Shown piece by piece: positions 3 through 28,160 of a stretch of DNA of 33,126 bases (positions are counted from its first letter, which is position 1; each line of letters begins with the position of its first letter). The position numbers and the translations under genes were made by a program. Origin of the DNA: an uncultured Hyphomicrobiales bacterium (GTDB lineage Bacteria > Pseudomonadota > Alphaproteobacteria > Rhizobiales > Beijerinckiaceae); NCBI GenBank assembly GCA_903897875.1, contig CAIUDK010000129.1:1-33126 (forward strand), written 5' to 3'. Below the pieces are notes generated by a model. The model had not been told where the DNA came from, searched no databases, and was given only the letters and a program-made list of their open reading frames with translations.

Positions 3-623
3 ACGATCGTTGGTTTTATTCGCGCCGATGCGCCCATTAAATCCGTGGCTGAATTGCGCACCAAAGAGCTCATTGTCGCCGCTACCGGCAGCGGCGCCGA
101 TAGCCAAACTTATCCCGATGTTTTGCGAAAACTCTTTGGGCTCAACATACGCATTGTGTCGGGCTATCCCGGCTCGCGCGATATGAATCTGGCGGTTGAG
201 CGGGGCGAAGTGCATGGCACCTTCATCAGCTATGATACGGCCGCACGCGAGCCAAGTTTTCGTGATGGAAGTCGCCGCATTTTTGTTCAAGGCGCAATCA
301 CACCAGACGAGCGCATGAAAGACATTCCAACACTCGCTGGCCTTGCAAAATCTGATGACGAGCAACGCGCTATAGAATTCTTTCTACTGCGTGCTGGCAT
401 GGGGCGTCCCTTTGTCGCAGCTCCCACCGTGCCACCAGAGCGATTGACCGCACTGCGTGAAGCTTTTGCTGCTGCTCTGCGCGATCCCGAGTTGATTGAA
501 GAGGCTAAAAAAGGAGGTCTCAACATTTCATATGTCTCGCCCGGAACACTCGCTGCCATTGTGGCAAGTGGCTACAAAGCCGACAAAGCAACGATTGCGC
601 GTGTGCGCGATGCCATGCGTTAA
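3..623 (+). CDS. Tripartite tricarboxylate transporter (TctC/Bug) family substrate-binding protein, 5'-truncated by window edge
   Basis: Open frame continues upstream of the listed GTG at 45 (TIVGFIRADAPIKSVAELRTKELIVAATGSGADS...). C-terminal motifs GYPGSRDMNLAVERGEVHG and RPFVAAPTVPPERLTALREAFAAALRDPEL resemble the other SBPs in this window. Confidence 0.85.
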   Translation, partial: TIVGFIRADAPIKSVAELRTKELIVAATGSGADSQTYPDVLRKLFGLNIRIVSGYPGSRDMNLAVERGEVHGTFISYDTAAREPSFRDGSRRIFVQGAITPDERMKDIPTLAGLAKSDDEQRAIEFFLLRAGMGRPFVAAPTVPPERLTALREAFAAALRDPELIEEAKKGGLNISYVSPGTLAAIVASGYKADKATIARVRDAMR

Positions 624-639
624 CAAAGAGGAAGCATCC

Positions 640-1737
640 ATGTCAGCGGTCCACTTGGCTGATCCTTATCTCGACTGGGCACATGCACAAGGCGTCCCTA
701 TTGTCGAAGATTTTGGAATCGATATACGCAAAGTGCCAGTTGCTCGCTGGGATCGCTATGGCATGAATGGCGCGTTTTGCCACCTCAAAGGCCGCGACGA
801 CTACATTTCGATCTTTGCTTTCGAATTGCCGCCGGGCGGAAAATCGGCCCTTCTAAAGCATATTTGTGAAGAGGTGATTTACGTTATCTCAGGACACGGC
901 TCCACAACTGTGGTTTTGGAAGATGGACGCAAACATAGTTTTGAATGGGGGCCAAAAAGTCTTTTTTCGATTCCGCTGAATGCCACGCATCAATATTTCA
1001 ACGGATCTGGATTAGAGCCGGCTCGTTTTGCCTCTGTCAACAATATGGTCTTCACCATGAATCGCTTTCGCGATGAGGACCTAATCTTCAATTGTCCCGT
1101 TTCGTTTCCTGAGCGCGTTGGCAGTCCGAATTATTTTGCGGGCGAAGGTGAGTTTATTTCCATTTCACCTGGTCGTCATCAATGGGAAACAAATTTTGTT
1201 CCCGATCTTTCCGATTTTGAGCTCAAACAATGGTCCAAGCGCGGCGCGGGAGGTTCCAACCTTCGCTTCATGTTGACGGAAAACACGATTGGCGCACATT
1301 CCTCAGAAATGCCCGTTGGTACCTATAAAAAAGGCCATCGCCATTTTGACGGCGTCTGTGTTTTTGCCGTGACGGGTGCCGGTTATTCTCTGCTGTGGCG
1401 CGAAGAACATGAAGATTTTACGCGCGTCAATTGGGAACATGGCTGCGTCTATTGCCCACCCGATTCCATGTTCCATCAGCATTTCAATGTGGCTGACCAT
1501 CCCTCGCGCTACTTAGCGCTTCAAATTGGAACCGTGCGCTATCCCTTGCTGAAAATGAAGCGTGAGATCTGGGACGTTGGTGTTGACAAGGACGTCAAGC
1601 AAGGTGGTGCGCAAGTTGAATACGAGGATCAAGATCCACGCGTCCATTCCATTTGGCTCGACGAAATCAAACGCAATGATGTGGAATCCCGCATGGGCCC
1701 ATTCATTGATGAATCACTTTTCGTGGGGAAAGTTTGA
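640..1737 (+). CDS. Long bicupin protein 1 (cupin-domain protein, ~365 aa)
   Basis: ATG at 640 follows an AGAGGA-like RBS. N-half KHICEEVIYVISGHGSTT. C-half GTYKKGHRHFDGVCVFAVTGAGYSLLW...MFHQHFN. Similar to the ORFs at 11173 and 12534. Confidence 0.85.
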   Translation: MSAVHLADPYLDWAHAQGVPIVEDFGIDIRKVPVARWDRYGMNGAFCHLKGRDDYISIFAFELPPGGKSALLKHICEEVIYVISGHGSTTVVLEDGRKHSFEWGPKSLFSIPLNATHQYFNGSGLEPARFASVNNMVFTMNRFRDEDLIFNCPVSFPERVGSPNYFAGEGEFISISPGRHQWETNFVPDLSDFELKQWSKRGAGGSNLRFMLTENTIGAHSSEMPVGTYKKGHRHFDGVCVFAVTGAGYSLLWREEHEDFTRVNWEHGCVYCPPDSMFHQHFNVADHPSRYLALQIGTVRYPLLKMKREIWDVGVDKDVKQGGAQVEYEDQDPRVHSIWLDEIKRNDVESRMGPFIDESLFVGKV

Positions 1738-1739
1738 AC

Positions 1740-2696
1740 GTGACTGACATGACCCCAGCCAACCTCGATCAAAAATATCTTGTCGATCCCTATGTCAATT
1801 GGGCCAAGAGTGAAGGCGTGCCGATTGTTGCGGCAGCCGCAATTGACCTCTTTGCAGTGGAGACGAGCCCTTGGGCTCGCTTTGGTGTGAAGGGCGCAAT
1901 CTGCCATGTTGATGGCAGATGCGATTATCTCACCGCTTTCCTTTTCGAGATTGCGCCCGGCAAAAGCACAACGCCAATTCGTCACCTTTATGATGAATGT
2001 TTGTACGTTCTGGATGGCACGGGCGTTAGTGAATTTGTGCTCTCAGATGGCACGCGTCACAGCGTGACATGGGCTCCAAAATCTTTGATCTTCGTGCCCG
2101 TTAATGCAAGCTGCACGCATAAAGCTGAAGGGGCCAGTTCGGCGCGTCTGATAGCTCTCAACGATATGCGCTATTTGATGGGCCTATATCGCAACGAAAC
2201 TTTCATTTTCAACAATGATGCGCCTATGAGCGCACGTCAGCGCAAAGCGGTTGAAGCCGGCTTTGAGGTCAATCTATCCAGGCAGATGCCGCAACAGGCT
2301 GCGCTCTCGCGCGGCGACAGTGTCATTGGTGCTGATCTTACAACTTTGGCTGCAAAAAGTGCCGGGCTTGCCAAGCGGCAGATGCAAGGGAGTCATCTGC
2401 TGGGCGTGACGGGCGAGGGCTATACGTTGTCCTTTGAATCTGAGACATCAGATATCGTCAAAACCGATTGGCAGCATGGTGTTTTGACCGGACTTCCCGG
2501 CATGACATTTCATCAGCACTTCAATGCTCATGCCGCACCAACCAGTCTTATGACCGTTGAATTGGGCTCGCTCGCATCGCCCATGTTCCGAAGTCGCCGC
2601 GCCGCTTATGGCGACACGGACGTCTATGCTTCGGGGCATGAGATTATCCCGCGCGCCAACGAACGCGCTGACATAAGCAAGCACCGATTAGACTAA
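1740..2696 (+). CDS. Bicupin protein 2, shorter and divergent paralog with degenerate C-terminal metal motif
   Basis: Start ambiguous (TTG 1734, GTG 1740, ATG 1749), overlapping or abutting the upstream stop. Same family signatures: LVDPYVNWAKSEGVPIV, HLYDECLYVLDGTG, GVTGEGYTLSFE, MTFHQHFN. The HxH segment is replaced by AKRQMQG. Confidence 0.8.
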   Translation: MTDMTPANLDQKYLVDPYVNWAKSEGVPIVAAAAIDLFAVETSPWARFGVKGAICHVDGRCDYLTAFLFEIAPGKSTTPIRHLYDECLYVLDGTGVSEFVLSDGTRHSVTWAPKSLIFVPVNASCTHKAEGASSARLIALNDMRYLMGLYRNETFIFNNDAPMSARQRKAVEAGFEVNLSRQMPQQAALSRGDSVIGADLTTLAAKSAGLAKRQMQGSHLLGVTGEGYTLSFESETSDIVKTDWQHGVLTGLPGMTFHQHFNAHAAPTSLMTVELGSLASPMFRSRRAAYGDTDVYASGHEIIPRANERADISKHRLD

Positions 2697-3889: not shown

Positions 3890-4942
3890 ATGACATGCAA
3901 AGAATTGTCACGCCGGACCATTTGTGGCGCACTCGCTGGCACAGCCCTTTCGTTAACAGGCACGCATTGGTCGGCGCATGCCGATACGCTTGCTGATTTC
4001 TATAAGGGCAAGAAATTATTGCTTATCACATCCGCATCGGTGGGTGGTGGCTACGATCAATATGCGCGTCTCCTTGCGCGTCACATGAGCCGCTATATTC
4101 CCGGCGAGCCCACAATCTCCGTGCAGAACATGCCGGGCGCAGAAGGGCTCAAGGCCGCCAACCATATCTATAATGTCGCACCGCAGGACGGCACAATTAT
4201 CGGCGGACTATCGCGCAACACAGGGCTCGCTCGCTTTTATGATTTCAATAATTCAGGCATTCAATTTGATGCCAGAAAATTTCATTGGCTAGGGTCACCC
4301 CAGCAAGAGATTGGTCTCTTGATTGTTGGCGACAAATCAGGAGTGAAGTCAGCTCAAGATTTGAAAACTCATGCGCTCACGGTAAGTTCGACAGCGCGTA
4401 ATTCTCCAAGCTCTATCTACGCACGCATGCTCAATGATCTGTATGGCGCCAAGATCAAGCCCATCGACGGCTATGATGGCTCGCAAGCCTGTTTGCTGGC
4501 TGTGGAGCGTGCTGAAGTCGACGGTCATATTTCTGGCGGCTCATCAGCGCCGTTTCGAAACCGCTTTTTACCATGGGTGAAGGCGGGCAATGTTCATCTC
4601 ATTATGCAGATGGGTATGCAGCGCGATCCGGCGTTTCCCGATGTGCCAACAGCGCTGGACCTTATGACATCAGCGCAGGACAAACAGCTTTTCGAAATTG
4701 CTTTTGCCGAGCAGGTGATGGGACGGCCCTTTGTTTTGGGGCCGGGTGTGCCGACTGATCGCGTGGCGATGTTGCGCGCGGCTTTTGACGCAACGATGAA
4801 AGACGCCAAGTTTTTAGCTGAAGCAGAGCGGGAAAATGCTGAGATTGATCCGGTGGACGGTGTCACCATCAACGCGCTCTTGGACCGCGTCTATACAGCG
4901 CCGCCTGAAGTTGTTGAGCGCCTGCGCGCCTTAGCGAAATAA
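3890..4942 (+). CDS. TctC/Bug-type substrate-binding protein
   Basis: Signal peptide, then ADFYKGKKLLLITSASVGGGYDQYARLLARHMSRYIPGEPTISVQNMPGAEGLKAANHIYN. ATG at 3890 preferred over the TTG at 3884. Confidence 0.9.
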   Translation: MTCKELSRRTICGALAGTALSLTGTHWSAHADTLADFYKGKKLLLITSASVGGGYDQYARLLARHMSRYIPGEPTISVQNMPGAEGLKAANHIYNVAPQDGTIIGGLSRNTGLARFYDFNNSGIQFDARKFHWLGSPQQEIGLLIVGDKSGVKSAQDLKTHALTVSSTARNSPSSIYARMLNDLYGAKIKPIDGYDGSQACLLAVERAEVDGHISGGSSAPFRNRFLPWVKAGNVHLIMQMGMQRDPAFPDVPTALDLMTSAQDKQLFEIAFAEQVMGRPFVLGPGVPTDRVAMLRAAFDATMKDAKFLAEAERENAEIDPVDGVTINALLDRVYTAPPEVVERLRALAK

Positions 4943-7158: not shown

Positions 7159-8228
7159 CGCGATCAAACGCTTTTTCAAATAAAAGGAAATTCAGCGGAG
7201 TTGGGTCGGTGAAGAGAATTTGTTTGCTGGCCGCACTGTTTGCTAGCCTATCGCAGCAGGCCATCGCTGACGACAGTGTTCGCTCATTCTATGCCGGCAA
7301 GACGATGGAGCTCATCGTCTCAGCAGGAGCGGGTGCTGGCTATGATTCCTACGCACGAATTTTAGCGCGTCATTTTCCGCGCTATTTGCCCGGGAGTCCG
7401 ACCATTATCGTCAAGCAGATGGATGGCGCTGGCGGCCTAACGGCCACCAATTATCTCGCCGGTGTGGCGCCCAAAGATGGGTCAGTCTTTGCCACCGTCA
7501 ACAATCCAATCCCCTATCTTCCGCTACTGGGTGAAACCAAAGCGCGGTATGATAGCAAGACGCTCAATTGGATCGGCAGCATGGCGTCCGAAGTGGGCTT
7601 GCTTGTATCTACGCGTGCGAGTGGTGTTGATAGCATTGAAAAAGCAATATCCACGGGCATGACGGTGGCAGCGACTGGAGCTGGCAGCGGCAGTTATTTT
7701 AATGCGCGCGTGCTCAATCGGTTTATTGGAACCAAGCTTAAAATTGTTGCGGGCTATCAGACGGCGACGCAAGGGCTGCTCGCTATGGAGCGCGGCGAGG
7801 TGGATGGCTTTCCGGCTCTGATGTGGTCGACACTCAATCACACCAAGCCAGATTGGTTGGTGGGCGATAAGATTTATATCTTGGGACAATTGGCGCTCAA
7901 GCCACATCCTAAATTGCCCAATGTTCCGCTCGTCTCTCAGTTCGTTGCCAATGAGGCCGATCGTCAAGCCTTGCAAGTTGCCTTCGCGCCGCTCGCCGCC
8001 GCGCGTCCTTTTGTGGCGCCTCCCAATGTGCCAATTGAGCGTGTGAATGCTTTGCGAGCAGCATTTATGGCGACACTTGATGATGCCGACTTTCGCAAAG
8101 ATCTCGAGCGAGAACGACTTGAAACCTTTGGCTCCATGTCTGGCGAAGAGCTGACCGAGTTGATTGCGCAAGTCTACAAAACACCAGCTGATGTTCTGGC
8201 CAATGTGGCCGCACTCTCGAAAGATTAA
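7155..8228 (+). CDS. TctC/Bug-type substrate-binding protein
   Basis: SVRSFYAGKTMELIVSAGAGAGYDSYARILARHFPRYLPGSPTIIVKQMDGAGGLTATNYLAG; 4-nt overlap with the upstream stop. Confidence 0.9.
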   Translation: MTRSNAFSNKRKFSGVGSVKRICLLAALFASLSQQAIADDSVRSFYAGKTMELIVSAGAGAGYDSYARILARHFPRYLPGSPTIIVKQMDGAGGLTATNYLAGVAPKDGSVFATVNNPIPYLPLLGETKARYDSKTLNWIGSMASEVGLLVSTRASGVDSIEKAISTGMTVAATGAGSGSYFNARVLNRFIGTKLKIVAGYQTATQGLLAMERGEVDGFPALMWSTLNHTKPDWLVGDKIYILGQLALKPHPKLPNVPLVSQFVANEADRQALQVAFAPLAAARPFVAPPNVPIERVNALRAAFMATLDDADFRKDLERERLETFGSMSGEELTELIAQVYKTPADVLANVAALSKD

Positions 8229-8268: not shown

Positions 8269-8784
8269 ATGTCCGATCTGTCAAATAAACTTCCTCCCAT
8301 TCGTCGTATCGTGACGGGACATAGCGCCGACAATATCTCGCAAGTGTTGTGGGACGGAACCGATCTCAACACGCGGACAGGACCCGCTGGAAATTCGTCG
8401 ACGTTGATTTGGTGCACGGATAAAACGCCAACCGACAACAATGTTGGTGTTGATGTTGAGGATATGGGAAAACGAATTCTGGGCACAGCGCCTCCCATGG
8501 GTGGCACGCGTGTCACCGTGAATGATCTGCCGCCCGGTCGCGTCTCTAATATGCATCGCACTGAGACAGTGGATTATGTCTTTGTCTTGATCGGTGAGAT
8601 TGAGATGGATATGGATGATTCAACCGTCACACTCAAAGCAGGTGATGTCATGGTGCAACGAGGCACGAATCATCGCTGGATCAACAAAACCGATAAGCCA
8701 GCGCGCGTGGCCTTTGTGCTTGTTGATGCGGAGCCATTAGGAATTGGCCACGCCATCACAGGCCATAGTGTCGCGGGCCGATAG
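8269..8784 (+). CDS. Small single-domain cupin protein
   Basis: PPGRVSNMHRTETVDYVFVLIGEIEMDMDDSTVTLKAGDVMVQRGTNHRWINKTDKPARVAFVLVDAEP: canonical cupin motifs 1 and 2. Confidence 0.9.
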   Translation: MSDLSNKLPPIRRIVTGHSADNISQVLWDGTDLNTRTGPAGNSSTLIWCTDKTPTDNNVGVDVEDMGKRILGTAPPMGGTRVTVNDLPPGRVSNMHRTETVDYVFVLIGEIEMDMDDSTVTLKAGDVMVQRGTNHRWINKTDKPARVAFVLVDAEPLGIGHAITGHSVAGR

Positions 8785-8791
8785 AATTACC

Positions 8792-9406
8792 ATGAGCGAA
8801 TTGAAAGAAGAGAACATGTATCCAGCCGATATTCATCCCGAATCTGGGTGTCGCTTGCCGCCACCAGAGCGCGACCAGCTTGATGCTGAAACACAGAAAA
8901 TTTACGACGTGCATATGAAGCCCGGCGGCCATTCGATTCGTGGTCTACGCGGTCCAGGTGGGATTCAATTGCATAGTCCTGAGCTTTCCAAAACGCGCCG
9001 ACCTTTAGGGCGCTATCTCCGCTTTGAGGCTGGCTTTCCTGATCGTGTGCGCGAAGTTGCCATTTTGATTACGGCGCGTTGCTGTGATTGCCAATTCGAA
9101 TGGGCAGCGCATGAACATGAAGCGCAAAAGGCGGGCGTGCCGGAATTGACGATTGAAGCGATCAAGCACAATCGTTCTCTTGATGGACTTGATGCGGATG
9201 ATGCGCTCATCATCACTTTGGGGCGACAGATTTTTCGTGCGCGCAAAGTGACATCGGAGACTTATGCGCAATGCCAAAAATTGTTTGGCAATCGCGCATT
9301 GGTCGATCTGGTTGCCTTGATGGGCAATTATGCTTCAACGGCAGCTCTTTTGACGGCTTTTGATATGCAGTTGGATCCTGGCGTCGAGCCGCCTTTACCT
9401 GTCTAA
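8792..9406 (+). CDS. Carboxymuconolactone decarboxylase (CMD/AhpD-like) family protein
   Basis: REVAILITARCCDCQFEWAAHEHEAQKAGVPELTIEAIKHNRSLDGLDADDALIITLGRQIF; ATG at 8792 chosen within the longer ORF starting at 8744. Confidence 0.85.
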   Translation: MSELKEENMYPADIHPESGCRLPPPERDQLDAETQKIYDVHMKPGGHSIRGLRGPGGIQLHSPELSKTRRPLGRYLRFEAGFPDRVREVAILITARCCDCQFEWAAHEHEAQKAGVPELTIEAIKHNRSLDGLDADDALIITLGRQIFRARKVTSETYAQCQKLFGNRALVDLVALMGNYASTAALLTAFDMQLDPGVEPPLPV

Positions 9407-10908
9407 GAAAACAGCAGAGACTTAATCACCACCGGGACAACACCCGGTGGTGAGATCATCTCACCCACATCGACATAATCAAGCTCTTGCAGCTGCACAC
9501 CATCAATTGAGACAATGTCGCTGTTGAGATGACATTCCTTGTGCAAGAGCGTGCCCATGGTCTTGCCGATATCGCCATCAATCATCAGCAACAACAGGCC
9601 GCGTCGTTTGCCCGATGGCGCAACAGCATTGGCAATCGCAGTCGCGGTGGCAAAGAGCCGCTGATAATCTGGATCACCGGTCCAAGAAAACGCCAGTGCC
9701 AATTGGCCTTCGGGATCAATATCGAGTTGATCGAATTTGGCGCGCACGGCCGCTGTGATCTTGTCTGGGAAAATCTCGCCTGACAAATCCATGGGAATGG
9801 TAACAACGGGCACATTATGGACGGGTAAAACATCTGGCTTTGGCAGATAGATGGTTTTGCCGCTCACCTGCACGGTGAATTGCGAAGCACCAATCACTGT
9901 GGCGCGAATACGATTGCCGGGATCTGCAATGGGAAGCGAGCTACGCAAGGGTAGGCGCGCGCGCAGCTCATGCGCCAAATCGCGCGCCACATCGCCGAAA
10001 TCCTTGCTTTCGGTGTCAAAAATATATTCCGAAACGCCACCAGAAAAGGTGATGGCATTTGGCATCACATGGCGCGGCAAACGCTCGGTGAGTTCAAGGG
10101 CAAGGCCCAATTCATCAAGCGGCGCGCCGACAATCTGGTCGATGAGAACATCGGCAAGGCGGCCAGCGATTTGACGACGAAACGCCGGGTCTGCTGCCGT
10201 TTTCGAACTGACAGTGAGGCCCAAATCTTTGGCAACCAACCAAGCCGATTGATCGATGCGGGTCCAATCTCCCTGTGCGTCGGTTGCCAAAAGACGGCCA
10301 CCCACAGCAAAGGCGCTGACGCCAAGAATGACACCGCGATCAATCAAAGCCAATTTGGTTGTGCCGCCACCAATATCGACATGCAGCAGGCAGTCGCCTC
10401 GCGCGCGTGACAGCGCAACAGCGCCCGAACCATGCGCGGCCAATGTGCATTCCAATTTGTGGCCAGCGGTTGCGCAGACGAATTTGCCTGCCTCTTGGGC
10501 GAAAAGTTCATCAATGGCGCGCGCATTTTTGCGCTTGATAGCCTCACCCGTAAGGATCACCGCGCCACTATCAATGTCAGAGCGTTTCACGCCGGCGGCA
10601 TCATAGGAGTCATGGATGAAGTGATCGAGCGCATGGGCATCAATCATCCCGTCGGGCAGGAAGGGGGTGAGCATAATGGGCGAGCGCCAGACCACTTCGC
10701 GGTCGGTCACGATAAAGCGACTGGAAAGGCCCTGCGCTTGGCGCTGCAGAGTGACCTTAGCAAATAGAAGATGGGATGTTGAGCTACCAATATCGATGCC
10801 AATGGTGCGAAGCTCAATGCTGTCTTGGCTCCAAATCCACTTCGCCATCTCTAGCTTTTGGGCATCCGTCATGGCGGCGTGGTTATGGTCTTCATCTACG
10901 TCGTGCAT
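9403..10908 (-). CDS. eutA: EutA-like ethanolamine ammonia-lyase reactivating factor family protein (ASKHA ATPase)
   Basis: Phosphate-1 motif RTIGIDIGSSTSHLLFAKV; SGAVILTGEAIKRKNARAIDELFAQEAGKFVCATAGHKLECTLAAHGSGA; phosphate-2 motif CLLHVDIGGGTTKLALIDRG; adenosine motif NAITFSGGVSEYIF. No eutB or eutC in the window. Confidence 0.85.
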   Translation of the reverse strand: MHDVDEDHNHAAMTDAQKLEMAKWIWSQDSIELRTIGIDIGSSTSHLLFAKVTLQRQAQGLSSRFIVTDREVVWRSPIMLTPFLPDGMIDAHALDHFIHDSYDAAGVKRSDIDSGAVILTGEAIKRKNARAIDELFAQEAGKFVCATAGHKLECTLAAHGSGAVALSRARGDCLLHVDIGGGTTKLALIDRGVILGVSAFAVGGRLLATDAQGDWTRIDQSAWLVAKDLGLTVSSKTAADPAFRRQIAGRLADVLIDQIVGAPLDELGLALELTERLPRHVMPNAITFSGGVSEYIFDTESKDFGDVARDLAHELRARLPLRSSLPIADPGNRIRATVIGASQFTVQVSGKTIYLPKPDVLPVHNVPVVTIPMDLSGEIFPDKITAAVRAKFDQLDIDPEGQLALAFSWTGDPDYQRLFATATAIANAVAPSGKRRGLLLLMIDGDIGKTMGTLLHKECHLNSDIVSIDGVQLQELDYVDVGEMISPPGVVPVVIKSLLFS

Positions 10909-11172: not shown

Positions 11173-12375
11173 ATGTCGAATACAAATACGACAGAAGAAG
11201 ACATCAGCATGGGCGGAAAATTTCTCGTCGATCCTTATCTTGATTGGGTGAAGGGCGAAAATATTCCTGTGCATTTGGATTTCGGGCATGACCTTTTGAC
11301 GCTGGAGACGGCGCCTTGGGATCGTTATGGCGCGCGTGGTTGCTTTGCTCATACGCATGGACGCGGCGACTTCATGGCCAATTATGTGCTGGAAGTGCCC
11401 CCCGGCGGCAAAACCGCCCCGATGAAGCATCTTTATGAAGCGTTTTTCTACACATTGGCTGGCACGGGCTCGACCACGATTTGGCTGCCCAATGGTGAAA
11501 AGCAGAGTTTCGAATGGGGCCCTAAGGCGCTGTTCGCCATTCCATTGAATTGCCAATATCAGATTTTCAATGGATCTGGTTTGGAGCCTGTGCGTGTGTC
11601 GTGCACCAATGATGCGCCGCTCACACTCAATCTGTATCACAATGTGGAATTCGTCTTTAACAATCCCTTCAAATTCCCTGAGCGCGTCGGCGCTGCAAAT
11701 CATTTTGAAGGCGAAGGCGAATTGGTTCCCGTGACGCGTGGAACAGGTGTAGCGCAGCTCAACATTTGGGAAACAAACTGCGTTCCCGATCTGACTGTTT
11801 TCAAATTGTATGAATTAAGTGAGCGCGGAAAAGGCTCGCTGAACGTGTCCTTCGTGCTGGCTGACGGCACGATGCATGCCCATTCATCGCAAATTCCAAA
11901 GGGTCGCTACAAGAAGGCGCATCGTCATGCTGCCGGCACCCATGTCCATGCTGTGGATGGCGAGGGCTATTCGTTGCTTTGGTATGAAGGCGAATCCGAG
12001 TTCAAGGAATTCCCTTGGAAGCACGGCTTCATGTATACGCCGCCGTTCTGGATGTTCCATCAGCATTTCAACACATGCGATCACCCTGCACGCTATCTGG
12101 CTTGCAGTCTGGGCAGCCGTCGTTACCCGTTCATCTCGCTGCGCAAGAAGAGCGCTGAGGGCGGCGGCTCGACGTCGATCCAGCAGGGCGGTCGTCAGGT
12201 GGAATACGAAGATCAGGATCCACGCATCCATCGCAAATGGCTCGAAGCCATGCAGGTGACCGGTGTGACCTCAGAGATGGGCGACATCTTTGATGAAGAC
12301 GCGATCATGAAGATTCCTGAAGCGGATCTTCAAGGTCCAATTCGTACACCAAAGTCGATTGGCCCAGCCGTTTAA
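11173..12375 (+). CDS. Long bicupin protein 3 (400 aa)
   Basis: HSSQIPKGRYKKAHRHAAGTHVHAVDGEGYSLLWYEGESEFKEFPWKHGFMYTPPFWMFHQHFNTCDHPARYLACSLGSRRYP; C-terminal QGGRQVEYEDQDPRIHRKWLEAM shared with bicupin 1. Confidence 0.9.
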   Translation: MSNTNTTEEDISMGGKFLVDPYLDWVKGENIPVHLDFGHDLLTLETAPWDRYGARGCFAHTHGRGDFMANYVLEVPPGGKTAPMKHLYEAFFYTLAGTGSTTIWLPNGEKQSFEWGPKALFAIPLNCQYQIFNGSGLEPVRVSCTNDAPLTLNLYHNVEFVFNNPFKFPERVGAANHFEGEGELVPVTRGTGVAQLNIWETNCVPDLTVFKLYELSERGKGSLNVSFVLADGTMHAHSSQIPKGRYKKAHRHAAGTHVHAVDGEGYSLLWYEGESEFKEFPWKHGFMYTPPFWMFHQHFNTCDHPARYLACSLGSRRYPFISLRKKSAEGGGSTSIQQGGRQVEYEDQDPRIHRKWLEAMQVTGVTSEMGDIFDEDAIMKIPEADLQGPIRTPKSIGPAV

Positions 12376-12533: not shown

Positions 12534-13736
12534 ATGCCCCATGACGTGAATGAGCGCAGCCATTGGCACGAGCCAAAGGCAGGTGAGAACGCTGGCTTTG
12601 GGAAATTTAGCCGTCCCCAAATGCCCTATGATCAATTCATGGAATCGGAAGGCGTGCCGATTTTTCGCGGCATTGGCGTCAAGCGCGTGCAAGATTTGCC
12701 AATGACAAACTGGCGCCGACTGGGTGGGCGCGGCAGTTATATTCAGCTCTATGGCACAGAAGGTCTGTGGGGCATGTATGTTGTGGAAGTGCCCGCCGGT
12801 GGTGCCCTCAATATCGAAAAGCATCTCTATGAGAAGCAAGTGCTGGTTGTTGATGGTCGCGGCTCCACTGAAATCTGGCGTGACGATCCAAAAGCCAAGC
12901 AGACATTCGAATGGCAGACGGGTTCGTTGTTTTCCATTCCCGTTAATGTCACGCATCGTTTTGTGAATGCGACCAATTCGCCAGCGCTCATATTGTGCGG
13001 CACGTCAGCACCAAATGTGATGAACCTGTTCGACAATCCGCGCTTTGTCTTCGATTGCCCGTTTGATTTTTCTGATCGCTATTCAGGTGAATCAGATTAT
13101 TTCAAACCGCAAGAAGACATCACGCCTGATCCTGTGCGTGGCCTTGCGATGAAGCGCACCAATTTTATCGCCGATGTGTTCAACACAGAATTGCCACTCG
13201 ATAATCGTCGCTCGCCAGGCTATCGACGACTTGAGCCCTATATGGCTGGCCAGCGTTTCCATCTGTGGATTGGTCAGCATGAAACGGGCCGTTATTCCAA
13301 ATCGCATAAGCACGAGAGTGCTGCTGTTCTCATCTGCATCAAGGGTAAGGGCTATACCTACACTTGGCCTGAAGCGCTTGGCATGACGCCATGGGCAGAC
13401 GGCAAGGGCGATAAAGTTTTGCGCCAAGATTACGAGCCTGTTGGTCTTGTCTCTGCGGCACCTATGTCTGGCGATTGGTATCATCAGCATTTTGGTGTGA
13501 GCAAAGATCCATTGCGTTTGACCGCTTGGTTTGGCCCCAACAATCATTCGGCTTTGAAGCCCGGCCTGCCGGGTGAAGCCATGGCAGATGTGTGGGCGAT
13601 GGATGTCAATAAGGGCGGCAAGGCCGTTCCCTATTGGATGGAAGATCCATTCATTCGCAAGGAATTCGAGCAGGCGCTCCATAATGATGGTGTGCCCTCT
13701 CGCATGGAAGACAAGCTCTATAAAAAGCCGGAATAG
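12534..13736 (+). CDS. Long bicupin protein 4 (400 aa)
   Basis: RBS AGGGAGG; EKHLYEKQVLVVDGRGSTEIW; GRYSKSHKHESAAVLICIKGKGYTYTW; DWYHQHFG. Confidence 0.9.
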   Translation: MPHDVNERSHWHEPKAGENAGFGKFSRPQMPYDQFMESEGVPIFRGIGVKRVQDLPMTNWRRLGGRGSYIQLYGTEGLWGMYVVEVPAGGALNIEKHLYEKQVLVVDGRGSTEIWRDDPKAKQTFEWQTGSLFSIPVNVTHRFVNATNSPALILCGTSAPNVMNLFDNPRFVFDCPFDFSDRYSGESDYFKPQEDITPDPVRGLAMKRTNFIADVFNTELPLDNRRSPGYRRLEPYMAGQRFHLWIGQHETGRYSKSHKHESAAVLICIKGKGYTYTWPEALGMTPWADGKGDKVLRQDYEPVGLVSAAPMSGDWYHQHFGVSKDPLRLTAWFGPNNHSALKPGLPGEAMADVWAMDVNKGGKAVPYWMEDPFIRKEFEQALHNDGVPSRMEDKLYKKPE

Positions 13737-13778: not shown

Positions 13779-14825
13779 ATGATAAAAAAATTGATCGCAG
13801 CCAGCGTTGCGCTGGGTCTGTATTGTCCTGCTGCGCTTGCTGATTCAGTTGCGGATTTTTATCGTGGCAAACAAGTTCAAGCCATCGTCGGCTATGGTCC
13901 CGGCGGTGGTTATGATGTTGTGGCTCGCCTTGTAGCGCGCTTTATTGGCAAACATATTCCGGGAAACCCCACTGTGGTTTTCCAAAATATGCCGGGCGCT
14001 GGCAGTCTTGTTGCGGCCAATTACATTTATAATGTGGCGGCTAAAGACGGCACATCCTATGGGCTTTTTGCCCGTAATATGCCGCTGATCGCGCTGCTGG
14101 GCGTCAATTCCAGTGTCAAATATGATCCACAAAAATTCACATGGCTGGGCTCAACGTCAGATTTTGAAGACGATGCCTATATCATGTGGTTGCGCAAAGA
14201 TGCGCCGGTCAAAACCATTGAACAGGCGCGTGTGAAGGGTGGGCCACCAGTGGTGCTTGGTGGCACGGGTGAGGGGGCGACAGGCAATGATGTGCCCCTC
14301 ATTTTGCAAGACGCGCTTGGCATGAACATCAAGCAGATTATTGGCTATCCTGACAGCAACGCACTCTTTCTAGCCATTGAACGTGGCGAGATTGAAGGGC
14401 GCACAACCGATTATACATCGGTGGTCAGCAGTCGCCCGCATTGGCTGGGGCCTGACAGTCCTGTGCGCGCATTGATGCAATTTGCCAGACGCACGCGCCA
14501 TCCAGATTTTCCAAACATTCCCACAGCGCGCGAATTGGCGCGTGATGACGATGCACGCAAATTGATTGAATTAGCAGAATTGCCTTATCTCTTCTCGCGG
14601 CCCTTTGCCGCTCCTCCGGGTATTCCAAAAGATCGTGCAGAAGCGTTGCAAAAAGCTTTTATGGACACGCATGCCGATCCCGAATTTTTAGCCGAAGCTA
14701 AGAAGATGGGCATATCCGTGTCGCCGATTAGCGGGCCTGATCTGGTCAAGGCCATGGCACAAATCTCAAATACACCGCCAGAGCTTTTGGCGCGGCTCAA
14801 GAAAATTTTTGCCGATAGCAAATAG
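13779..14825 (+). CDS. TctC/Bug-type substrate-binding protein
   Basis: Signal peptide (MIKKLIAASVALGLYCPAALA), SVADFYRGKQVQAIVGYGPGGGYDVVARLVARFIGKHIPGNPTVVFQNMPGAGSLVAANYIYN. Confidence 0.92.
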   Translation: MIKKLIAASVALGLYCPAALADSVADFYRGKQVQAIVGYGPGGGYDVVARLVARFIGKHIPGNPTVVFQNMPGAGSLVAANYIYNVAAKDGTSYGLFARNMPLIALLGVNSSVKYDPQKFTWLGSTSDFEDDAYIMWLRKDAPVKTIEQARVKGGPPVVLGGTGEGATGNDVPLILQDALGMNIKQIIGYPDSNALFLAIERGEIEGRTTDYTSVVSSRPHWLGPDSPVRALMQFARRTRHPDFPNIPTARELARDDDARKLIELAELPYLFSRPFAAPPGIPKDRAEALQKAFMDTHADPEFLAEAKKMGISVSPISGPDLVKAMAQISNTPPELLARLKKIFADSK

Positions 14826-14853
14826 AAAATGCCCCCGGTGTCGGGGGCATTTT
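14826..14853. terminator. Bidirectional rho-independent terminator between convergent genes
   Basis: AAAATGCCCCCG-GTGT-CGGGGGCATTTT: perfect 12-bp stem with 4-nt loop, A-tract on the left and T-tract on the right, between the + SBP stop (14825) and the - dioxygenase stop (14862). Confidence 0.95.
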
Positions 14854-14861
14854 TGTTTGTG

Positions 14862-15925: not shown

Positions 15926-16513
15926 ATGGATGGGCAGGAGCCAGAGCCACAAAACCCAGAGCTCATGAAACAACCAGTCTCGTTGTTTGCGCTGTTTCGT
16001 GTGTTTTTTGAAATCGGCCTTTTGAGCTTTGGCGGTGGCCTAGTCAGTTGGATTCATCGCGAAATTGTGAATAAGCGCGGCTGGATGAGCAACGAGGAAT
16101 TTCTCGCGGGCATGTCGCTGAGCCAAGTTCTTCCCGGCATCAATTCCACCAACACAAGCATTTTTGTGGGCCAACATTTGCGCGGGAGCGTAGGCGCTGC
16201 TGTGTGCCTGATGTCGATGTTGCTGGGACCCTTTCTCGCCATCCTACTCGCAGGCGTCACCTATAAATGGCTGATTGGCGTATCGGGTTTTCCAGCTCTC
16301 GTTGAGGGCGTTGGCGCTGTTGCGATGGGGCTTTTGATGCGCATCGGTATTCAAGCGGCCCAAAGTGTGAAGATCAGTTGGGCACCCGCCCTAGCCACTT
16401 TAGCGACCTTCATTGGTATTGGCATTATGCAATGGCCAATGCTGGCTGTTGTGGCTGTTGTTGCACCCATCAGTGTTTTGCTCGCTTGGCCAAAGGACAA
16501 AGCTGATGCGTGA
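15926..16513 (+). CDS. Chromate-type transporter, N-half of split pair 1
   Basis: LFRVFFEIGLLSFGGGLVSWIHREIVNKRGWMSNEEFLAGMSLSQVLPGINSTNTSIFVGQHLRG: ChrA domain signature; hydrophobic throughout. Confidence 0.9.
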   Translation: MDGQEPEPQNPELMKQPVSLFALFRVFFEIGLLSFGGGLVSWIHREIVNKRGWMSNEEFLAGMSLSQVLPGINSTNTSIFVGQHLRGSVGAAVCLMSMLLGPFLAILLAGVTYKWLIGVSGFPALVEGVGAVAMGLLMRIGIQAAQSVKISWAPALATLATFIGIGIMQWPMLAVVAVVAPISVLLAWPKDKADA

Positions 16514-17048
16514 TAATGTTTATACGACGCTTATTTTTATGTTGGCCCCTTTGTCGCTGGCCTCCATTGGTGGTGCGACGGGTATCTATGCACCGCTTCA
16601 ACATGAGACTGTGGAAGTTTTGGCTTGGATCACGCCGCGGGAATTCATCGATCTATTTGCGATTTCGCGTTTGACGCCGGGGCCAAGTTCCATGCTGGCG
16701 CCCTTGATCGCGTGGAAAGTGATTGGATTGTCAGGCGCGATTGTTGCGATGATTGCGCTCTATTTGCCGTCATCCTTATTGTGCTATTTCACCGCGCGTG
16801 TTTGGAACCAGCATCGTGGCAAGCCGTGGCATCGTGCGTGTGAAGCGGGCCTTGTGCCTGTGGCGGCAGGCTTGGTGTTTTCTGGCGTGTTGGCGCTGTT
16901 GCGGATCGCGGGCTCGGGTCCGCTCACTTGGGCAACGCTCGTGGTCACTGCAGCCCTTTTGACATGGCGGCCGAAACTCCATCCGTTCCCATTTTTGGGA
17001 GCGGGCGCGGTGCTCTTTCTGCTCGTCAATTGGTTTCAGCTGTCCTGA
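16506..17048 (+). CDS. Chromate-type transporter, C-half of split pair 1
   Basis: PLSLASIGGATGIYAPLQHETVEVLAWITPREFIDLFAISRLTPGPSSMLAPLIAWKVIG; ATG 16506 overlaps the upstream gene. Confidence 0.9.
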   Translation: MRDNVYTTLIFMLAPLSLASIGGATGIYAPLQHETVEVLAWITPREFIDLFAISRLTPGPSSMLAPLIAWKVIGLSGAIVAMIALYLPSSLLCYFTARVWNQHRGKPWHRACEAGLVPVAAGLVFSGVLALLRIAGSGPLTWATLVVTAALLTWRPKLHPFPFLGAGAVLFLLVNWFQLS

Positions 17049-22778: not shown

Positions 22779-22901
22779 GGCTTGAGGTGCGTGCCCTAAT
22801 GCTATGGCTCGCGTCCCAAATCGGGGAGGGCTGCCCTTGTGCTTTTGCCCAAAAGCCTCCATAAAAATACCAATATAAAAATAAAACGGGTGGGGTTTTC
22901 A

Positions 22902-23498
22902 GTGGCAGACACACAAGATCAGACAGTCGAGCGGGTGCTCGTCACGCCGACACTTTTTCAAATCTTTATGGCCTTCTTGAAAATTGGCGTGACATCATTT
23001 GGCGGCAGCTCGCGCGCGCAAATGTATGATGAGAGCGTCGAGCGTCATGCATGGCTGACAGAGAAAGATTTTCTAACAGGCTTTGCAGTGGCGCAAGTTT
23101 TACCCGGCGCTAATCCTGTCAACCTCGCGCTCTATATTGGTCTGCGCGCCCGCGGCCGCTTGGGTGCCACGATTGCAGTGTTGGGCATGGTGATCCCCGC
23201 ATTTTGCATCATCCTCCTTATGGGGTTTGCCTATAAGCAGTTGAGCGATTATCCCGCCACGCATTTTGTTTTGGGTGGTGTTGCTGCAGCCGGTGTAGGC
23301 GCCACACTCGCTATCGGCGTCAAAGTGACGACGCGCTTAGAACGCCATGTTTTGCCGATCCTCACCGCGCTGATTGTTTTTGGCGTTGTTGGTCTCCTGC
23401 ATTGGCCGATGGTGCCAGTGGTTCTCGTTGCCGTCCCCTTTAGCGTTGGGTTGGCCTATGTAAAAGCGCGCAAACAAGCAGCGGAGACAGGCAAATGA
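22902..23498 (+). CDS. Chromate-type transporter, N-half of split pair 2
   Basis: FLKIGVTSFGGSSRAQMYDESVERHAWLTEKDFLTGFAVAQVLPGANPVNLALYIGLRARG; GTG start at 22902 assumed (longer frame from 22839 also open). Confidence 0.88.
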   Translation: MADTQDQTVERVLVTPTLFQIFMAFLKIGVTSFGGSSRAQMYDESVERHAWLTEKDFLTGFAVAQVLPGANPVNLALYIGLRARGRLGATIAVLGMVIPAFCIILLMGFAYKQLSDYPATHFVLGGVAAAGVGATLAIGVKVTTRLERHVLPILTALIVFGVVGLLHWPMVPVVLVAVPFSVGLAYVKARKQAAETGK

Positions 23499-24028
23499 CT
23501 GATAATCGTCTCATCGGCCTCGTGCTGGTTTTTGCGCCCTTGTCGCTGTTGTCGTTTGGTGGTGGGCAAGCTGTGGTTGCTGATATTGGGCATCAAACAG
23601 TTGGTGTGCAGCAATGGCTCACTGGTCCGCAATTCCAAGATATGTTTGCCATCTCGCGCGCGGCACCTGGCCCCAGCACTTTGATTGCTGCGCTCATTGG
23701 CTATCAGGTGTCCGGATTCTTGGGCGCGATTATCGCAACACTCGCCATCTATGTGCCATCATCCATCGTTGTTTATTACATATCCAAATGGTGGCAAAAC
23801 CATCCAGTGTCATTGATTAAAACGGCGGTGGAGAATGGTCTGGCACCTGTGGCGATTGGTTTGATTTTCGCCGGTGCTGTGGCTGTGATCGAGTCCGCAC
23901 CCATCACCGCTCTCACATTGGCCACGACCGCTGCTTGCACGGCTGTGTTATTTTATACAAAAGTCAGCCCCTATCTGCTGGTTTTGGGTGTTGCGGCAAC
24001 CTATTTGGGAATCGTTTTTGTCGTATGA
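23495..24028 (+). CDS. Chromate-type transporter, C-half of split pair 2
   Basis: PLSLLSFGGGQAVVADIGHQTVGVQQWLTGPQFQDMFAISRAAPGPSTLIAALIGYQVSG; 4-nt overlap with the N-half. Confidence 0.9.
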   Translation: MTDNRLIGLVLVFAPLSLLSFGGGQAVVADIGHQTVGVQQWLTGPQFQDMFAISRAAPGPSTLIAALIGYQVSGFLGAIIATLAIYVPSSIVVYYISKWWQNHPVSLIKTAVENGLAPVAIGLIFAGAVAVIESAPITALTLATTAACTAVLFYTKVSPYLLVLGVAATYLGIVFVV

Positions 24029-27185: not shown

Positions 27186-28160
27186 ATGCAATCGATCACA
27201 AGCAGATTGATGACGTCGTCATTCGCCATTTTGACGTCATTTTGTGCCATAGGTGCGCATGCCCAATCAGCAGACCAATGGCCCAACCATCGGGTGTCCA
27301 TCATGGTGGGCTTTGCCGCCGGTGGTTACGCAGACAATGTCGCGCGCATTGTCTCTCGCAATCTTGGCGAGCGTTGGAAACAGGCTGTGGCCATTCAAAA
27401 TATGGCGGGTGCTGGCGGCAATATCGCAGCGCGATCTGTGTCAGTAGCGCCCCCTGACGGCTACACCATTTTGGCCACAACAACAGGTCTGGCAATCAAC
27501 GAAACGCTTTATAAAAATAAGGGTTTCACAAGCAAGGGCCTCGTGCCTATCGCTCTTCCCATCGAAGCACCTGAGCTTTTGGCAACCAATGCCAAGGGCG
27601 ATATTCGAACGTTTGAAGATGTGTTGAAGGTGGCGCGCTCTGGCAAGCTCTTCATGTCAACCTCTGGCATCGGCAGCGGCTCACACATTTCGGCCGAATA
27701 TCTATTTAAGATTCTTGCCAAAGTCGAAGTGAAACACATTCCGTTTCCCGGCGGCAATCCTGCCATGCTGGCACTTATGACGGGCGATGTGAATCTGACG
27801 GCCAGTACAGCAACAGTTCTGCCCTCGATCATCAATGGTGAGCTGATTGGCATTGGTGTGGGAAGCACGCAGCGCATGCCAATGCTGCCCAATGTGCCGA
27901 CCTATATTGAAAACGGTTTTCCCGGATTCACGGCCAGTTCGTGGGTTGGCTTCTTTGCGCCAGCTGGAACACCTGACGCGATCTTGGACAAGATGAATGC
28001 CGATATCAATGAATCGCTCAGTGACCCCGAAGTCAAAAAGCAATTCCAGACGATGGGCCTGATCTCCACAGTGCGCAATCGCACTGACACAACCAAATTG
28101 TTCAACTCGGAAGTTGAGCGTTGGGGCGTCATGGTGAACGCACTCAATCTGTCGGAATAA
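27186..28160 (+). CDS. TctC/Bug-type substrate-binding protein
   Basis: Signal peptide; WPNHRVSIMVGFAAGGYADNVARIVSRNLGERWKQAVAIQNMAGAGGNIAARSVSVAPPDGYTILATTTGLAINETLYKN. Confidence 0.93.
   Translation: MQSITSRLMTSSFAILTSFCAIGAHAQSADQWPNHRVSIMVGFAAGGYADNVARIVSRNLGERWKQAVAIQNMAGAGGNIAARSVSVAPPDGYTILATTTGLAINETLYKNKGFTSKGLVPIALPIEAPELLATNAKGDIRTFEDVLKVARSGKLFMSTSGIGSGSHISAEYLFKILAKVEVKHIPFPGGNPAMLALMTGDVNLTASTATVLPSIINGELIGIGVGSTQRMPMLPNVPTYIENGFPGFTASSWVGFFAPAGTPDAILDKMNADINESLSDPEVKKQFQTMGLISTVRNRTDTTKLFNSEVERWGVMVNALNLSE

Follow-up and report, generated by a model that had tools for sequence, protein, structure and literature searches.

The EutA-like gene of the window (the whole stretch of DNA analysed here, 33,126 nucleotides of contig CAIUDK010000129.1 from an uncultured Hyphomicrobiales bacterium) encodes a genuine full-length EutA-family protein of the ASKHA superfamily, and the functional partner of such proteins is very probably a cupin. 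We propose that they form a distinct ASKHA clade whose partner would be a cupin metalloprotein (in most cases a bicupin of some 360–413 aa) and not ethanolamine ammonia-lyase (EutBC). A bolder reading is tentative, with somewhat less than an even chance of being right: EutA-like proteins may be a widespread, undescribed class of chaperones that use ATP to insert or renew the metal of cupins, serving a non-cobalamin client while being entered in databases as EutA. The relevant features of the window are as follows.

610..1737, plus strand: 375-aa bicupin in the tail-to-tail operon, scoring 569 bits against the bicupin profile
1749..2696, plus strand: diverged bicupin of the same operon, 315 aa, 373 bits with the bicupin profile
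8269..8784, plus strand: single-domain cupin, penultimate gene of the tail-to-tail operon, PF07883 47.8 bits
9403..10908, minus strand: EutA-like ASKHA ATPase, group A, 501 aa, PF06277 377 bits
10843..10908, minus strand: N-terminal His/Asp-rich arm (MHDVDEDHNHA...), flexible, residues 1–11 with pLDDT below 50
11173..12375, plus strand: bicupin, 400 aa, the most likely partner; divergent from the EutA-like gene with 264 bp between them; HxH at 250/252 and HQH at 296/298
12534..13736, plus strand: second bicupin, 400 aa, PF07883 match, 457 bits with the bicupin profile
13779..14825, plus strand: TctC/Bug-type solute receptor of the bicupin operon, of the same family as TctC of related loci
14825–14854: two-way terminator-like hairpin after the bicupin–bicupin–TctC unit, at its end

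The PF06277 (EutA) model covers residues 32–500 of the window protein (E 1.8e-112), and the ASKHA and EutA motifs quoted in a first-pass annotation of this DNA do occur in it, and their conservation in relatives is strong. Scores against the four curated NCBI EutA equivalog models (304, 277, 235 and 206 bits) fall far short of the respective cut-offs (598, 769, 799 and 952). The ATP-site residues D39, G41, D178, G180–G182 and S289–G291 are common to the window protein and canonical EutA, and the phosphate-1, phosphate-2 and adenosine motifs of the superfamily are conserved in the EutA-like proteins; class-specific residues include S42, S43 and K185, where canonical EutA has T, T and N. A structure model (pLDDT 87) gives Foldseek matches to ASKHA proteins (exopolyphosphatase, the 2-hydroxyglutaryl-CoA dehydratase activator 1hux, EutJ and MreB); a search by sequence among solved structures found no solved EutA. 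In a FastTree phylogeny with long branches, the EutA-like and EutBC-linked EutA proteins lie on opposite sides of a branch valued at 99, and as judged by sequence comparison the EutA-like proteins are a clade distinct from EutBC-linked EutA.

The gene had been labelled an orphan, a description that does not hold, as four full-length EutA-like genes are present in the window genome and likewise in each of five congeneric genomes. These fall into four paralogue groups, with the window gene in group A. Group B proteins have a (GHGHSH)n-like C-terminal tail and their genes adjoin an ABC transporter and bicupins; the long His-rich tails with GHGHSH repeats were seen at loci L034, L037, L040, L043, L047 and L050. 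Group C genes, which encode no His arm, are often head-to-head with group B; such a gene is the immediate downstream neighbour of its own diverged bicupin in several rhizobial genomes and in one from the genus. Group D adjoins TctAB or DctM transporters; single-domain cupins precede the gene in four of six genomes, as a tandem pair in three of those four, and resemble a split bicupin.

The absence of ethanolamine ammonia-lyase proposed from the window alone extends to the whole assembly (a Beijerinckiaceae-type MAG, 96% complete), from which both EutB and EutC are absent; the possibility that eutBC lies hidden elsewhere in the genome was ruled out by this genome search. Of 19 other genomes that carry EutA-like genes, 18 likewise lack EutB, the lone exception being a Roseiarcaceae isolate with EutB as well as an EutA-like gene, and we found no eutB or eutC within reach of any EutA-like locus. 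At the canonical EutA loci examined the relationship is reversed, with eutB in all and a bicupin in none. Outside the genus, a full-length EutA occurs in one of 143 other genomes of the family sample, adjoined by EutB and EutC. Separately, an EutC-like match was seen at locus L054 (G028:C22:27389-27898) in a genome without detectable EutB.

We considered whether the EutA-like proteins are ordinary reactivases of some other adenosylcobalamin enzyme in the genome. In favour of such an explanation, B12-binding domains are present in all 11 genomes tested, but the window genome has its matches within frames of 1252, 720 and 679 aa, lengths that fit methionine synthase and the acyl-CoA mutases, enzymes that rely on other helpers. 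A search for diol dehydratase gave no match, nor did its control. With EutB and EutC absent and the linkage being to cupins, we regard an adenosylcobalamin client as very improbable.

The genomic neighbourhood was surveyed in 80 named loci, gathered by EutA-like sequence alone, together with loci of the genus and of the class sample; genes were called by a codon-usage script and then scored with profiles. A bicupin is adjacent on the same strand to 84 of 121 EutA-like genes (upstream of 43, downstream of 41) and adjacent on the other strand to six, including that of the window; 12 more have a cupin within four genes. This set contains a few near-duplicate loci; after dereplication at 80% identity a cupin lies within eight genes in 60 of 70 EutA-like loci. 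The pair, with either gene first, is found in Alpha-, Beta- and Gammaproteobacteria, Actinobacteria and Chloroflexota, so the conserved neighbourhood on which the first-pass annotation had staked its suggestion is present. There is no bicupin near the remaining 19 genes, some of which are at contig ends. Five of the 19 (two from one contig) share a single cupin and UbiD, and in four of these a gene for a NicO-type Ni/Co transporter is present as well; we had treated these UbiD loci as a plain exception, a view dropped once the single cupins turned up. Four marine Rhodospirillaceae loci (L115, L119, L132 and L148) have the operon-like order UbiD, EutA-like, NicO-type Ni/Co transporter and single cupin, with the EutA-like gene at about 8974–10503 in the first three and 8129–9655 in L148; the NicO gene beside the EutA-like gene hints at the metal.

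The layout of the window is as originally described, with bicupins 11173–12375 and 12534–13736 head-to-head with the EutA-like gene and those at about 610–1737 and 1749–2696 in the tail-to-tail operon, to which we add the single cupin at about 8269–8784, absent from that description. Bicupin 11173 is 69–75% identical to bicupins lying directly upstream of EutA-like genes in Phyllobacterium, Oxalobacteraceae, Pseudonocardia and Rhizobium, and the window therefore keeps the same type of partner in a third arrangement; close relatives of the window have a different bicupin (47–49%), directly downstream of the EutA-like gene. The diverged bicupin 1749–2696 has lost part of its second cupin, including the HxH, and may be a non-metal paralogue. 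The window also contains five genes of the TctC/Bug receptor family (3–623, 3890–4942, 7224–8228, 13779–14825 and 27210–28160), with no TctA or TctB recognised among the subset of window proteins searched, and two gene pairs of the chromate-transporter family, the members of each pair lying side by side (15926–17048 and 22839–24028).

Across genomes, EutA-like genes and bicupins are near-perfectly matched. Among 289 alphaproteobacterial genomes, EutA-like genes occur in six and bicupins in seven, and in the seventh genome the contig with the bicupin breaks off within an EutA-like fragment. Among 251 Chloroflexota genomes, EutA-like genes occur in 17, all 17 of which have bicupins and none EutB, whereas in the five genomes with EutA of the lower score band (canonical) EutB adjoins in all five and a bicupin in none; two have a bicupin without an EutA-like gene, but in one of them it lies at a contig end and in the other the match is weak (220 bits). 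These counts come from related genomes and are not independent events, but the pattern is seen in two phyla. Because the neighbourhood is conserved and the co-occurrence near-perfect, the bicupin originally guessed as the client is strongly supported as the partner. Bicupins often outnumber EutA-like genes within genomes, which implies that not every bicupin needs an EutA-like copy of its own.

The two families also appear, from their sequences, to co-diverge. For 78 adjacent pairs, the distance matrices correlate with a Mantel r of 0.80 (0 of 999 permutations); as this test is confounded by species history, we added a quartet comparison of paralogous modules within genomes, in which 28 quartets give the same pairing between genomes, two give conflicting pairings and 22 are too weak to call. 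Both genes do sit among transporter and oxygenase genes, and it could be argued that they have no functional link and simply ride together in catabolic islands, with species history confounding the Mantel result. Against this, the two genes are immediate neighbours in either order, their co-occurrence recurs in two phyla and their pairings within genomes agree; we give the idea very little credence.

Strict pairing and co-divergence would also fit an obligate complex, in which the EutA-like protein and bicupin are two subunits of a single ATP-consuming enzyme, the ASKHA subunit energising a substrate or partner and the cupin completing the chemistry, in the manner of 2-hydroxyacyl-CoA dehydratase activators or of enzymes of the hydantoinase or acetone-carboxylase type. 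The presence of 1hux among the best fold matches lends this some appeal. It is harder to reconcile with genomes having multiple bicupins without an EutA-like protein of their own, with the retention of the full EutA domain and motifs, and with a His arm that has no obvious catalytic role; we consider it unlikely, at roughly one chance in five.

Metal-related features are found on both proteins. The His/Asp-rich arm is present at 93 of 108 EutA-like N-termini and absent from all five EutBC-linked EutA proteins with a readable N-terminus, and it is unstructured in the EutA-like model. In the bicupin, the C-terminal HxH and HQH (H250, H252, H296 and H298) are kept in 93 of 93 proteins, and a model (pLDDT 91.8) matches MncA, oxalate decarboxylase, gentisate dioxygenase and quercetinase; by its conserved predicted His metal ligands the bicupin belongs with the metal-dependent cupins. 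EutA strips damaged cofactor from EutBC in a reaction that requires ATP (PMC5821096), and by analogy we propose that the EutA-like protein would use ATP to open the cupin, so that its active-site metal is loaded or exchanged, with the flexible arm (MHDxDxDHxH) holding a metal ion. The family and fold, the linkage to the partner, the near-total lack of EutB in these genomes, the conserved His ligands and the arm are observed; a physical complex, ATP use, the metal and the substrate are inferred. In our estimation, there is about an even chance that these proteins reactivate the cupin or load its metal. The His-rich tails of group B and the NicO gene at the marine Rhodospirillaceae loci also speak for the proposal. 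Counting against this explanation are group C proteins, which in some genomes have a bicupin and no His arm, the 19 of 121 genes with no nearby bicupin, and the frequent excess of bicupins.

The neighbours of the EutA-like genes include TctABC transporters, LigXa-type Rieske oxygenases, UbiD, CoA-transferase and thiolase, which suggests catabolism of aromatic or other organic acids, and the cupins would most likely act in organic-acid, probably aromatic-acid, catabolism. Since transporters are frequent nearby (TctABC, ABC and DctM), the pair might instead be a sensory or regulatory module, in which the cupin binds a metabolite and the ATPase controls a linked transporter or pathway. The invariant metal ligands of the bicupin look enzymatic, there is no DNA-binding or kinase domain, and several loci have separate LysR, MarR and IclR regulators (the IclR label being by inspection of the sequence); a sensory role is thus distinctly improbable, at some one chance in ten.

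The metal-chaperone reading bears on existing annotation. The group A protein WP_262291242.1 (Phyllobacterium, L031 14001–15506) is publicly named ethanolamine ammonia-lyase reactivating factor EutA; a bicupin lies upstream of its gene, we did not find EutC on the plasmid bearing it, and the name is likely a misannotation. If the proposal is true, it corrects names of this kind, which suggest that a genome lacking eutBC uses ethanolamine. It also offers a concrete partner to test where bicupins have expanded, namely in freshwater Beijerinckiaceae, in marine Rhodospirillaceae and in Chloroflexota. We found no pairing of EutA with cupins, or other non-ethanolamine context for EutA, in the open literature (the EutA known from ectoine metabolism belongs to a different pathway and only shares the name), and nobody appears to have described the system.

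Among known systems, the closest is EutA itself (PF06277; NCBIfam PRK10719 models), with which the EutA-like proteins share homology over the whole length, the ATP-site residues and a C-terminal PVxxKSL motif; they differ in having a cupin partner in place of EutBC, which is missing in nearly all genomes, and in the N-terminal arm, the class-specific residues and scores below the equivalog cut-offs. The gentisate 1,2-dioxygenase, MncA/oxalate decarboxylase and quercetinase families have two cupin domains and His metal ligands in common with the bicupin, although the match is one of fold with weak sequence similarity (8–18% identity in structural alignments). HypB, UreE and SlyD-type nickel chaperones have His-rich stretches, and HypB is an NTPase serving a metal enzyme; these offer a parallel in how the EutA-like protein may work, but the fold class differs. 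A role of the EutA-like protein as a metallochaperone is a prediction, for which the features seen are its His-rich sequence and one NicO linkage. DdrA/PduG (diol dehydratase reactivase) and HgdC (2-hydroxyacyl-CoA dehydratase activator) likewise belong to the ASKHA ATPases and maintain the activity of a metallo- or cofactor-enzyme. HgdC appears among the fold matches of the EutA-like protein; the clients of both are different. To our knowledge, no reactivating ASKHA ATPase is known for clients other than B12 enzymes and a few radical dehydratases, and a second EutA branch tied to cupins, if true, would mean that the reactivase idea has been reused for ordinary metal enzymes.
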